Part shown: positions 20,113-40,830 of the stretch, one piece after another
Numbering within the stretch: the first letter of the stretch is position 1
Layout: each line of letters starts with the position of its first letter
Origin: Lachnospiraceae bacterium
GTDB taxonomy: Bacteria > Bacillota > Clostridia > Lachnospirales > Lachnospiraceae
Direction: 5' to 3'
Length of the DNA: 45,236 nucleotides
Assembly: GCA_021202635.1 (NCBI GenBank)
Contig: JAJQCQ010000035.1
Location: forward strand, 1-45,236
Position numbers and translations under genes: made by a program
The notes under the pieces: model-generated
Seen by the model: the letters and a program-made list of their open reading frames with translations, nothing else
Database searches by the model: none
What the model was told of the DNA's origin: nothing

Positions 20113-20138
20113 GTAACAGTTTTGAACAGCGTCGAAAG
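20113..20138. mobile_element. solo end of the palindromic mobile element
   Basis: GTAACAGTTTTGAACAGC followed by GTCGAAA matches one end of the elements at 39381 and 40725. The other end and the target duplication are absent. It is probably a remnant. Confidence 0.45.
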
Positions 20139-36958: not shown

Positions 36959-39313
36959 CTATACTTTTTCAATTACACAGGTATGCTTTATTACTTCCCA
37001 TTTCCGTTCTTTTTTCACCTCGTAAAGTTTCTGGTCCGCGTGAATCAGCGCTTCTTTCAGCGAAATGTCATCTTCCGGTGCGATAGGACAGGCACCGGCA
37101 GAGACAGTCAGCAGATAAGGCTTATCGCTGCTATGGTTATAGCAGTCAAATTTTTTATAGAGAGATTCGATGAGCTCTTCCCCATTGTCTCCTCTGCGTG
37201 ACTCAATCAGGCAGGTAAATTCATCCCCGCCGATGCGTCCGGCAATGCCGCGGCCGTTTACAAGCTCTTTTAGTATCTGGCCGATGTTCCGCAGGGAGGA
37301 ATCGCCTTCCCTGTGGCCGAAGCGGTCGTTGACGATCTTGAGGTTGTTCATATCGATATAAAGGACGATCTGGTGGCGCCCCGCCTGCCGCAGCACCTCG
37401 AAGCGTTCTTCTGCCAGTGCATAGAAGCCGCGGAGGTTCAGAATGCCGGTGAGCGGGTCGGACTTTGAGATGGTGTCCAGTTCAATATTGTGGTCCCTGA
37501 GCGCCTCCAGATTTACCTCCAGCTGTGCCTGAATCTTTTCGTTGGACTGAAGAAGCGTAATCATCTTGATCGCGGAGCTTAGCTGGTTGATCAGAAACTC
37601 GCCGTTGACATACAGGGAATGTGCCATGTCGCAGATCAGGACGCCGTACACGATTTTCCCAAAGAAAAGAGGGAGCATAATCTGGGCGTGTGCGTCTTCA
37701 CCGGCCGGCTTTGTATACTGATACATTTCCCCTAAGGTCTGTGCCTGCTCCGGCTGCGGCACAGATCGCACCCGGCCATCCTCCAGAACCGCTTTCAGCT
37801 CCAGCACAGCCGGGGAGTCGAATGGCTCCAGAAACTGGTGCTCCAGGGGTGCCGGGAGAAGATAGAGCCAGGCGTTTCTGATCTGCAGCCAGTCCAGGTT
37901 CTCCAGAATCGAACAGAAGCTCTCATCGGTCCCATGCTCAAACTGCAGAAGATTCTGCACGAAGAGCTTCATATCGTAATTCATCTGGTATTCCTGCTTT
38001 AGTACGGTGGCTGACTGACGGTTCATGGCGCGAATGATTTTCCGGTATATGGTAGAAAAGGCATTCCTCAGCTCGAAGCGGGATTCCGTATCGGTCTGAA
38101 ATTCCAGAAGAGCGTGGTAAAACTGCTCAAATCCCGTCATCAGGCCATCCATATCCGCGATGCCGACAACGTCCCGGCTCAGAAAATCATCGAGAGCAAA
38201 GCCCATATCCGCGACAGAGACCGAGTTGTCCCCTTTGCGCATAAAGTAGGCGGCGAGATACTCAAACAGCCGGATATAGGATTGTCTGACATTCTCCAGA
38301 TCGATCTGGGCTTCTGCGTGATAATTGTGATAAAAAATATCATGAAAACCGGATTCCAGTCCTCCCAGAATCTGTATCACGCTTTTTCTCCCTTCCGTCC
38401 CCTGCCGGATGGAGTCACGCAGGATAAAGTGCGTGGGAATGGAACGCTCTTTCACCGGCCGGCCGGAATACAGATCCAGTACGGCGCACAGAGCTGCCTC
38501 ACCCAGCTGATTCGGGTCGGCGAGTACGGTGGAAAGCGGAGGAGACGCCTTTGCACCGGCCGGCGCATCATCAAAGCCGAAAATGGAGAGATCCCGTCCG
38601 GGCATAAGCCCGCGCCGATACATCTCCTGGTACAGGCCGAGCGCGGTATCATCATTGACACAGAATACCGCTTCCAGATCCGGATTTTCATCCAGAAAGG
38701 AGCGAAAAACGGACTCGTTGTTCGAGGATAAGTCTCCTTCCGTATAGCGGTGCGCAGGCAAAGCAAGTCCGTGTTCGGAGAGAACGCGGCGGAAAATCCC
38801 GTGACGTTCGACCGCATCGGTATTGTTCTCATGTCCGCCGATCATACCGATTCGGGTGAAGCCACAGGTATCAATCAGATACTCCAGTCCCTCCCGGATC
38901 CCGGATTCATTTTCAAAGGTCACATCCAGGTAACCGTCCATTCGGGCCGCGATCAGTACAATCGGAATCCCGTCATACTGGTGCAGCAGTCTGCGCATCC
39001 GCTCCTGTGTCGTAAAACAGCCGATGCAGTCTGCTGCGACGATCAGGGCATCGACGCAGCCTTTTTCCAGATAGGAAAAAACAGTGCTGTGCTGATATTC
39101 ATACATCAGCTCGCGATTGTCTTTCAGGTCACGATCCAGGTATTTGCCGGGGAGAAAGATGGTATCTACGCCCTTTTTCTGTGCTTCTGCCATAATGCCA
39201 TTGCAGATGTGCTGTGTGAAGTCATCAAGAATGCCGCTGACAAGCACGCCAACGGTCAGTCTTCTGTCTGCGGGTTCTTCCCTTGAAACGCTTTTTTTGT
39301 CGCAGTACATCAT
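36959..39313 (-). CDS. LacI-type sensor-GGDEF diguanylate cyclase
   Basis: This 784-residue protein has a periplasmic-binding-protein-like domain of the LacI/GalR type (about residues 18-310, with VGVLVSGI, FENESGIREGLEYLI, IGMIGGHEN, CVNDDTALGLY and FGFDDAP) but no DNA-binding helix-turn-helix, signal peptide or membrane helix. A middle helical and GAF-like region follows. The GGDEF domain ends the protein, with intact GRIGGDEF near residue 697. The RxxD inhibitory site is missing (NGRG). It likely makes c-di-GMP in the cytosol in reply to a sugar-like ligand. GAAGGGG lies before two adjacent ATGs; the second would shorten it by one residue. No EAL or effector gene is near. Confidence 0.88.
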   Translation of the reverse strand: MMYCDKKSVSREEPADRRLTVGVLVSGILDDFTQHICNGIMAEAQKKGVDTIFLPGKYLDRDLKDNRELMYEYQHSTVFSYLEKGCVDALIVAADCIGCFTTQERMRRLLHQYDGIPIVLIAARMDGYLDVTFENESGIREGLEYLIDTCGFTRIGMIGGHENNTDAVERHGIFRRVLSEHGLALPAHRYTEGDLSSNNESVFRSFLDENPDLEAVFCVNDDTALGLYQEMYRRGLMPGRDLSIFGFDDAPAGAKASPPLSTVLADPNQLGEAALCAVLDLYSGRPVKERSIPTHFILRDSIRQGTEGRKSVIQILGGLESGFHDIFYHNYHAEAQIDLENVRQSYIRLFEYLAAYFMRKGDNSVSVADMGFALDDFLSRDVVGIADMDGLMTGFEQFYHALLEFQTDTESRFELRNAFSTIYRKIIRAMNRQSATVLKQEYQMNYDMKLFVQNLLQFEHGTDESFCSILENLDWLQIRNAWLYLLPAPLEHQFLEPFDSPAVLELKAVLEDGRVRSVPQPEQAQTLGEMYQYTKPAGEDAHAQIMLPLFFGKIVYGVLICDMAHSLYVNGEFLINQLSSAIKMITLLQSNEKIQAQLEVNLEALRDHNIELDTISKSDPLTGILNLRGFYALAEERFEVLRQAGRHQIVLYIDMNNLKIVNDRFGHREGDSSLRNIGQILKELVNGRGIAGRIGGDEFTCLIESRRGDNGEELIESLYKKFDCYNHSSDKPYLLTVSAGACPIAPEDDISLKEALIHADQKLYEVKKERKWEVIKHTCVIEKV

Positions 39314-39380
39314 TCACCCCTTCTTTGCGCTTTGGCTGATTCTTAAAAACATGTTTCACGGAAAATCTGTTTGAACATTA

Positions 39381-39556
39381 GTAACTATTCAGAACAGCAG
39401 GCCGCAGACCGCCTGCGATGCAGGCTATATGCCGCTAATGCGTCATATGTCTGTGGCTTGATGGGCGTTCCGCCCATCCCGAAATGAAAAAACAGCCCTT
39501 AGCAGGTAAACCTGCCCAGTCTGTCTTTTCATTTCGATGCTGTTCTGAACTGTTAC
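39381..39556 (-). mobile_element. palindromic miniature mobile element, long form
   Basis: The ends GTAACTATTCAGAACAGCA (39381-39399) and TGCTGTTCTGAACTGTTAC (39538-39556) are inverted copies with one mismatch. Directly outside both ends lies GAACATTA (39373-39380 and 39557-39564), a perfect 8-bp target duplication. The inside is rich in hairpins, among them CGAAATGAAAA/TTTTCATTTCG and GCAGGTAAACCTGC. It has no gene. GTAA ends plus an 8-bp duplication are the pattern of IS66-type elements, so a MITE of that group is likely. Confidence 0.8.
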
Positions 39557-39837
39557 GAACATTATAGCATAGATGTCCCGAAAGCAAAAGGGATATGAAA
39601 AAATAATTATTTTTTTCTGTGTACTTGAAATATAAGCGGTGAAATTGTATGATAAGGGCATTCATGATCGTAAAGCGACTGACGTCGTTTACTATCATTT
39701 ATCAGAAGCAAAGAGCGCCTGCAGGTATCGCCTGATATGTCAGCGACAGTCCAATGCTTTTAGAATACGCTGGACATGGAGTGAATACGGAGTATGGCAG
39801 GAGCATTGCATAGGGACAGACGAAGAGGAAGAGACCG
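39557..39837. other. intergenic stretch before tatD, no gene recognised
   Basis: The short frames here lack ribosome binding sites and look like nothing known. A promoter for tatD was not convincingly found. Confidence 0.5.
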
Positions 39838-40704
39838 ATGATTTTTGATACACACGCACACTACAATGAGGAGGCCTTTGATGAGGATCGGGAAGCACTG
39901 CTTGCCGGGATGGAGGCAGCCGGGGTCACCGGCATTGTCAACATGGGCGCCTCCTGGCGGGATGTGGAGGAGAGCCAGCTTCTTGCGGCGCGCTATCCGT
40001 ATATTTATGCGGCGGCCGGCATTCATCCGGATCACGCCGGGGAATTGATGAAGGAAGTACCGGCATACCAGGAACCGGCTTCGGCGGAAGATGGCGTCTC
40101 CGCCCTGAACAGCGTCCCGTGCAGTGCAGACGTAGCGGAAGACAAATTCGCCCGGCTGTATGAATTCTGCCGCAGGCCAAAGACGGTAGCGGTCGGGGAG
40201 ATCGGGCTGGATTATTACTGGGATAAGGAAAGCCGCGACCTGCAAAAAGCGTGCTTTGTGCGCCAGCTGCAGATGGCGAAGGAGGTGGATCTGCCGGTCA
40301 ATATCCACAGCCGGGATGCGGCACAGGACACATTCGATATTATGAAAGCGGAACACGCCGGAACGACGGGCGGCATCATCCATTGTTTTTCCTCGTCCGC
40401 GCAGATGGCACTGGAGTATGTGAAGCTGGGATATTACATTGGCATCGGCGGCGTCGTCACCTTTAAGAACGCGCGTGTGATGAAGGAAGTCGCAGCGGCA
40501 GTGCCTTTAGATCACATTGTGGTCGAGACCGACTGCCCTTATCTGGCGCCCGCGCCGCATCGCGGGAAGCGCAATTCCTCCCTCTATCTGCCCCTGGTGA
40601 TCGAAGCGATTGCCGGGATCAAAGGGATCGATCCGCAGGAGGTGGAGGATGTGACTTACGCGAACGCCCGGCGGGTGTATCGGCTGGATGACCGGTTTTT
40701 GTAA
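39838..40704 (+). CDS. tatD: TatD family metal-dependent hydrolase
   Basis: This protein of 288 residues is a TIM-barrel nuclease or hydrolase of the TatD family. Metal ligands are seen in FDTHAHYN (His6 and His8), GEIGLDYYW, NIHSRDA, IHCFS and ETDCPYLAPAPHRGKRN. The protein is longer than usual by about 30 residues because of an Ala/Ser/Glu-rich insert near residues 78-105. AGAGGAAGAG precedes the ATG. In many clostridia tatD, rnmV and ksgA lie together; here rnmV is missing and a mobile element separates tatD from ksgA. Confidence 0.92.
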   Translation: MIFDTHAHYNEEAFDEDREALLAGMEAAGVTGIVNMGASWRDVEESQLLAARYPYIYAAAGIHPDHAGELMKEVPAYQEPASAEDGVSALNSVPCSADVAEDKFARLYEFCRRPKTVAVGEIGLDYYWDKESRDLQKACFVRQLQMAKEVDLPVNIHSRDAAQDTFDIMKAEHAGTTGGIIHCFSSSAQMALEYVKLGYYIGIGGVVTFKNARVMKEVAAAVPLDHIVVETDCPYLAPAPHRGKRNSSLYLPLVIEAIAGIKGIDPQEVEDVTYANARRVYRLDDRFL

Positions 40705-40724
40705 AGCTCCGGTATCATTACATT

Positions 40725-40788
40725 GTAACAATTCAGAACAGCATCGAAAAGAAAAGACTGACTGTGGCCTGCTGTTCTGAATTGTTAC
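40725..40788. mobile_element. palindromic miniature mobile element, short form
   Basis: The ends GTAACAATTCAGAACAGCA and its exact inverted copy (40770-40788) enclose 26 bases. ATTACATT stands directly outside each end (40717-40724 and 40789-40796), a perfect 8-bp target duplication. The inside (TCGAAAAGAAAAGACTGACTG then TGGCC) matches the two outer parts of the long form at 39381 joined together, so it is an internally deleted copy. Confidence 0.82.
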
Positions 40789-40830
40789 ATTACATTTATT
40801 TTATGAAAGGATTATGGAACTGCCCTTCGT

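Follow-up and report, generated by a model that had tools for sequence, protein, structure and literature searches.

The two short palindromic elements on either side of tatD in the window (the whole 45,236-nucleotide stretch of Lachnospiraceae DNA analysed here) are very likely copies of a non-autonomous Lachnospiraceae MITE family with GTAACNNTTCAGAACAGC ends, which a transposase of the ISBst12 group would move. Element A, a non-coding 176-bp long form (39381–39556, plus strand), is flanked on both sides by exact copies of GAACATTA (39373–39380 and 39557–39564), and element B, a 64-bp short form (40725–40788, minus strand), by exact copies of ATTACATT (40717–40724 and 40789–40796). Shared ends and perfect 8-bp duplications had been reported for both elements in the preliminary description, and all four 8-mers were confirmed to the base. 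The terminal inverted repeats are 19 bp in length (consensus GTAACNNTTCAGAACAGCA). Those of A, GTAACTATTCAGAACAGCA on the left (39381–39399, plus strand), which supplies the 5′ half of the outer stem of the predicted fold, and GTAACAGTTCAGAACAGCA on the right (39538–39556, read on the minus strand), differ at two positions, the dinucleotide after GTAAC, and those of B are identical. Allowing up to three mismatches, GTAACNATTCAGAACAGC occurs five times in the window, against 0.05 occurrences expected from shuffled sequence; four of these are the ends of A and B and the fifth is a lone degenerate end at 20113. This single left end (20113–20130, three mismatches, followed by GTCGAAAG) is probably the remnant of an old copy.

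When reverse-complemented, B aligned to A with 59 of 64 bases identical and one 112-base gap, so that it covers the initial 22 and the final 42 positions of A; the direct orientation gave 53 of 64 with two gaps. The alignment supports the earlier proposal that the shorter element, in which the outer parts of the long form are joined, is a deletion derivative, and adds that it is inverted relative to A. The gene between them, tatD (39838–40704), begins 281 bp after the end of A and stops 21 bp before the start of B. On the other side of A, the minus strand of 36959–39313 encodes a 784-aa protein which we take, by eye, to be a LacI-type sugar-binding sensor fused to a GGDEF-like domain.

The window's genome (G000) is a draft of 3.98 Mb in 106 contigs with a completeness of 97.46. 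A search of this genome for the ends, as the preliminary description had suggested, returned 211 matches to GTAACNATTCAGAACAGC at ≤2 mismatches and none to the reversed-pattern control, and therefore about 100 copies are present; at this density in 3.98 Mb, two copies inside 1.5 kb would be unremarkable by itself. BLAST with the 176-mer returned 66 matches, partial and internal inverted ones counted, with eight at full length and ≥97% identity, the window copy included. Pairs of ends, spaced 36–450 bp apart, were drawn from the loci around 100 of the 211 ends and from the best BLAST hits. An exact 8-mer stood on both sides in 13 of the 60 pairs (shuffled right flanks, mean 0.30), rising to 22 pairs at ≤1 mismatch (shuffled mean, 0.90) and 31 pairs at ≤2 mismatches (shuffled mean, 3.21). 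The length of the exact repeat peaked at 8 (13/60 pairs) and no pair reached 9. The remaining 38 pairs had ≥2 mismatches in the 8-mer; some of these may be old and some mispaired by the pairing rule. The 22 best duplications (≤1 mismatch) were rich in A+T (83.5%), and the copies that they enclose ranged from 41 to 328 bp, with classes near 52–68, 175–176 and 225–227 bp. The copies are too short for a transposase gene, 176 bp leaving room for at most 58 codons. Inverted ends, a constant 8-bp duplication, the lack of a transposase gene and dispersed copies with empty sites together mark the family as a MITE. Similar ends (GTAACTATTCAGAACAGTACCTCGCA... and like) enclose an interior of a second type at three loci of G000 (L100, L109 and L098), and the copy at L100 is 134 bp with an exact 8-bp duplication.

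A close relative, G035, made it possible to compare occupied and unoccupied sites; its TatD aligns with that of the window as two segments, at 93% and 98% identity. The element A is absent from its site in G035, where the sequence is continuous and holds a single copy of the 8-mer, GAATATTA. Empty sites were predicted for 22 copies and then searched for in G035. At five of the 22 sites, that of A included, the element was missing and exactly one 8-mer stood in its place, in three cases with a single base substituted. Of the others, four were without the element at an imprecise junction, one was without it beside other changes, seven were filled, one was half-retained and four gave no call. The half-retained site is that of the 64-bp element, where G035 keeps the right half, and at the same site decayed element-like sequence was recognised by eye in G014, G065 and G030. 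No empty site for B was found among these four relatives aligned. Because intact or decayed remnants occupy B's site in all four, the 64-bp copy is older than the 176-bp copy. The preliminary description had claimed movement of a non-coding element and had looked to sister strains for empty sites; the duplications and the empty sites of G035 back the movement, and the comparison of sites bore out the prediction for the 176-bp element and failed to do so for the 64-bp element.

Among the filled sites, one carries 68 bp in G000 and 49 bp in G035, differing by a clean internal deletion, and another carries 176 bp that are identical in the two genomes, with flanks that differ by 3.0 and 4.3%. At a further filled site (L107 in G000, L374 in G035) the 8-mers are near-identical and the interiors measure 49 and 115 bp, as if the interior had been exchanged. 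The tatD of G035 (L327) has about 75 bp more than that of the window, with the frame open (349 aa); by eye the extra sequence is not such an element.

An immobile family of fixed regulatory or terminator hairpins would fit the strong folds described below and the intact or decayed element at the 64-bp site of four relatives, but is hardly credible given the empty sites with one 8-mer, duplications far above chance and an inconsistent orientation to neighbouring genes. For 32 full-length copies, crude ORF calls placed the element (E) as -E- in eight cases, -E+ in six, +E+ in six and +E- in four, with the other eight copies apparently inside an ORF.

The transposase responsible is one that we infer from the ends, since no such transposase was found in G000: PF03050 (IS66 transposase) had no match there, and a divergent IS66 protein query and a six-member profile likewise recovered no transposase. 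G030 and G035, of 60 genomes the two relatives richest in these ends, likewise gave no IS66-type transposase; PF03050 matched 18 of 36 genomes of the genus, G030 and G035 not among them. Classical IS66 (tnpABC) was considered as the mover and rejected, as its ends share only GTAA with the family and none of the 11 classical loci carries GTNACNNTTCA. The four classical loci of the genus that could be placed end in GTAAACG (twice), GTAAATG and GTAAGCG, and three of the four have exact 8-bp duplications; a fifth locus runs into a contig end.

The divergent, ISBst12-like IS66 elements have ends of the form GT[A/T]ACT[A/G]TTCA, which match those of the family. An exact GTNACNNTTCA was present at 12 of 13 divergent IS66 loci (12 of 14 when the weak hit L298, which has no exact GTNACNNTTCA, is counted) compared to 0 of 11 classical loci, with 19 matches against a shuffled mean of 1.15; further weak loci from the six-member profile (L341–L349) lay outside this comparison. 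A 2,267-bp IS in G014, a lower-scoring PF03050 match, has GTTACTATTCAC ends and an exact 8-bp duplication, the only matching one among the divergent ISs in the loci examined. Its 520-aa transposase scores 41 bits with PF03050 (cut-off 23.1) and 140 with NF033517 (cut-off 180), and as a query it found matches in 5 of 47 genomes of the genus and, with the threshold at E 1e-20, in 8 of 392 across the order. Judged by its ends, L306 comes nearest to the family: these read GTAACTATTCAGTAG, the element has a single ORF and measures 1,453 bp, its transposase scores above the NCBIfam cut-off for IS66, and its outer flanks are without a matching 8-mer. The ends of the family match ISBst12-type ends over about the first 12 bases only, and no autonomous element with the full 18-bp end was found in the examined loci under the pairing rules. 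In the first set of loci scanned, no autonomous element with matching 8-mers was found at a spacing of 450–6000 bp; in the wider loci, spaced pairs such as L170 1076–2803 and L186 763–4555 enclose ordinary genes and have no matching 8-mers, and a 787-bp pair in L240 shares its left end with a 176-bp copy.

The divergent ISs were assigned to the ISBst12 group from their ends and build. ISDge4 of Deinococcus geothermalis, a single-ORF member of the ISBst12 group of IS66 with a 449-aa transposase ORF, is bounded by GTGACTACTCAGCA and GTAACTGCTCAGCA, and its direct repeat, CCTCGATG, is 8 bp long (PMC12898284, in excerpt). Because both the divergent-IS ends and the ends and 8-bp repeat of ISDge4 agree with the family, its mover is probably of the ISBst12 group. 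The IS66-like mover of the preliminary description is accordingly narrowed to the divergent branch, by its ends and 8-bp duplication, and the classical branch, sharing only GTAA, drops out; the comparison of ends that it had proposed within the same genome was run on elements of other genomes, G000 having yielded none, with the same split between divergent and classical ends.

The ISBst12-type ends were also counted across ten transposase-carrying genomes, using GTWACTRTTCAS and a reversed control. They were clearly enriched in four (G014, 204 vs 2; G275, 54 vs 0; G315, 37 vs 5; G119, 12 vs 2), weakly in two (G069, 6 vs 1; G243, 20 vs 10) and not enriched in four (G413, 11 vs 14, and G226, G202 and G083), so that such a transposase is not always accompanied by many such ends. 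In G014, 26 of the listed GTWACTRTTCAS matches lie ≤90 bases from a contig start (e.g., L394 and L403), which suggests a high-copy IS breaking the assembly. The GTTACTATTCAC hits of this genome were first read as MITEs, a reading since dropped: by eye, of three contig-end hits, the two of C3 resemble IS ends and the one of C1 does not. A 143-bp hairpin element of G014 (L410) was set aside, being without an 8-bp duplication.

It is improbable that another transposase family, also producing 8-bp duplications, moves the MITE and that the likeness to ISBst12 ends is a coincidence. Such a mover would suit the failure to find an IS66-type transposase in G000, G030 and G035, and an end match that beyond about 12 bases is common to no IS examined. 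Against it stand the distribution of GTNACNNTTCA between divergent and classical loci, the agreement of ISDge4 in both the kind of end and the length of duplication (PMC12898284, in excerpt), and the breaking of drafts at repeats, as at the contig starts of G014. At least four G000 contigs (C31, C34, C73 and C74) end inside a copy, and since the draft is fragmented and its contigs end in this way, a multi-copy IS could be missing from it.

A parallel family supports comparison with the ISBst12 branch. In G315 (one contig), the elements with GTTACTGTTCAC ends that were examined comprise three 145-bp forms and a 60-bp form, and each of the four has an exact 8-bp duplication; the folding energies of the 145-bp forms, given without a shuffle control, run from -47.9 to -61.7 kcal/mol. 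Like the elements of the window, these have ISBst12-type ends, exact 8-bp duplications, long and short forms and a hairpin fold, whereas their interior differs (by eye) and their ends are GTTACTGTTCAC. An ISBst12-like IS is present in the same genome; its ends are GTTACTGTTCAG, its flanks show no matching 8-mer, and its ends and those of the MITEs differ at base 12 (G vs C).

At ≤1 mismatch, GTAACNNTTCAGAACAGC was found in 21 of 60 genomes, with 20 of these in the window's genus (eight having a single match) and one lone hit elsewhere. A scan of named genomes returned at least 112 stretches, mostly from Lachnospiraceae (also Blautia, Roseburia and Frisingicoccus), and the scattered hits in other groups look like chance. 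In 19 of these 112 stretches the ends could be paired with ≤1 mismatch in the 8-mer, and the duplication was exact in 11. The viral-contig hits (11 loci) included no pair with ≤1 mismatch in the 8-mer.

The preliminary description had also read the internal hairpins of the long form as a hint that it may be transcribed and folded, and prediction bore out the folding. For A, the modelled RNA structure has an energy of -95.5 kcal/mol (z -13.9 vs shuffles) and consists of an outer stem, one branched arm and two hairpins, with the arms on the plus strand: arm 1, branched, at 39400–39458 (helices 2, 3 and 4 in the pair counts); arm 2 at 39460–39478, GATGGGCG ... CGCCCATC (helix 5); and arm 3 at 39480–39536, CGAAATGAAAA ... 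TTTTCATTTCG (helix 6). Several genomes together supplied 32 distinct copies of full length; 26 of them were aligned, the six of 227 bp being left out, and 95.8% of the cells in this alignment pair. Changes on both sides of a pair were present at 24 of 71 pairs, a count that none of 500 shuffles reached (mean, 8.8), and shifting the partner by 1–3 columns reduced pairing to 35–41%. Because the reference structure derives from the window copy and the kinship of the sequences inflates covariation counts, these controls outweigh the raw counts. RNAalifold on the same alignment gave 55 pairs, 21 with double changes. Helix 6 had the most compensatory changes (11 of 22 pairs changed on both sides), and helix 5 had no double-sided change, with 97.1% of cells paired. 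Example pairs divide into GC 17 / UA 9 and GC 17 / AU 9, with no GU. Rfam returned no match to the element that reached the gathering score; weak hits to microRNA models were seen, together with T-box-like leaders outside element copies (L215:3655–4090 and L072:1147–1408, minus strand, both below the gathering score).

The modelled fold of the long form is strongly supported by these counts, and its compensatory changes could also come from palindrome correction. Replication template switching, in which a quasipalindrome is corrected against its own arm as described in E. coli (PMC7202029, in excerpt), would produce them without selection on the fold; this is a real possibility, somewhat short of likely, and is compatible with a MITE family moved by an ISBst12-group transposase. 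It accords with double changes that have few one-sided intermediates and with the fully homogenised ends of the short form. The wobble counts would fit it as well: G-U cells exceed A-C cells over all pairs (74 vs 20), yet without three wobble positions and the outer five pairs they number 8 vs 15, and as the G-U cells do not then exceed the A-C cells, no RNA strand stands out. On the other hand, most long copies retain their loops and the TA/CT mismatch close to the ends, both of which correction would erase.

Several copies in the alignment (L042, L044, L046, L049, L051, L197 and L215) have lost outer bases and kept the inner stem. Two of these, L051 in G000 and L197 in Lachnospiraceae AH.1_3, are orthologous end-eroded copies. 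Over the element and an adjoining hairpin copy they are 95.6% identical (216/226), compared to 81.2% in the left flank (203/250, 100 gap columns) and 87.3% in the right flank (349/400; Fisher p 8e-7 and 6e-4, for a single locus with element boundaries set after viewing the alignment). Correction between arms alone predicts no such excess over the flanks, which counts against template switching as the full account. With regard to the fold, pair 14/169 is compensated between the two copies and pair 29/72 broken, the other differences lying in loops or lost outer pairs. An extra arm-3 hairpin or tail was observed just upstream of L049, L051, L197 and L215 (partly also of L044, L046 and L042), across a spacer of about 10 bases. 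L213 appears to have lost what lay between two such 52-bp repeats; this locus had been considered as an empty site of L215, a reading that was dropped because the alignment fits loss between direct repeats.

Taken as a mechanism, a DDE transposase of the ISBst12 group (IS66 family) would bind the GTAACNNTTCAGAACAGC ends and move the element in trans, cutting an A+T-rich target with an 8-base stagger that gives rise to the 8-bp duplication. That elements also shrink in place is seen between G000 and G035. Purifying selection on the element, acting on RNA or on a DNA hairpin, and homogenisation of the palindrome may each account for part of the upkeep of the fold, and the host may have retained a few of the end-eroded copies. 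A further-reaching account, which seems rather doubtful, is that the long form is a mobile structured cassette, RNA or DNA hairpin, whose fold is itself selected, with copies that have lost their ends keeping the fold by compensation as the host takes them over.

Bacterial MITEs with long hairpins are a well-known kind (PMC2229807, in excerpt), and four systems are close enough to compare. The ISBst12 group, as represented by ISDge4 and ISBst12, resembles the family in its GTNACT..TCAG-type ends and in direct repeats of 8 bp (PMC12898284, in excerpt), but its members are autonomous with a single transposase ORF, whereas the copies here span 41–328 bp. The remaining three are described in PMC2229807, again in excerpt. 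RUP of Streptococcus pneumoniae is likewise a short palindromic MITE whose mover, IS630-Spn1, was deduced from shared ends, but it inserts at TA in place of the 8-bp duplication and IS66-type ends found here. YPAL/RU-2 of Yersinia is a 168-bp hairpin element with recent mobility visible from empty and filled sites; unlike the present family, with its terminal repeats and duplications of 8 bp, it carries its inverted repeats internally, and its duplications vary from 3 to 26 bp. The Correia or NEMIS elements of Neisseria are dispersed, folded MITEs of 107- and 155-bp species, the RNA of which has been proposed to be cut by RNase III; they carry TA at their termini, whereas the family here is known from DNA alone. 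No prior description of the family was found in the open literature at the level of titles and abstract openings. The family has been mobile recently and, so far as searched, is itself new, while belonging to a known kind of MITE.

The finding adds to the Lachnospiraceae an abundant and recently active MITE family, tied to the ISBst12 branch of IS66, a branch for which active transposition was termed a first report in the ISDge4 paper of 2026 (PMC12898284, in excerpt). With G035 beside the window's genome, sites can be studied directly in their filled, empty and shrunken states. The covariation, seen in copies that keep the transposon ends and in copies that have lost them, makes it testable whether selection on RNA, selection on a DNA hairpin or template switching maintains the folds of bacterial MITEs, and the unusually well-kept branched fold is the part that deserves follow-up.
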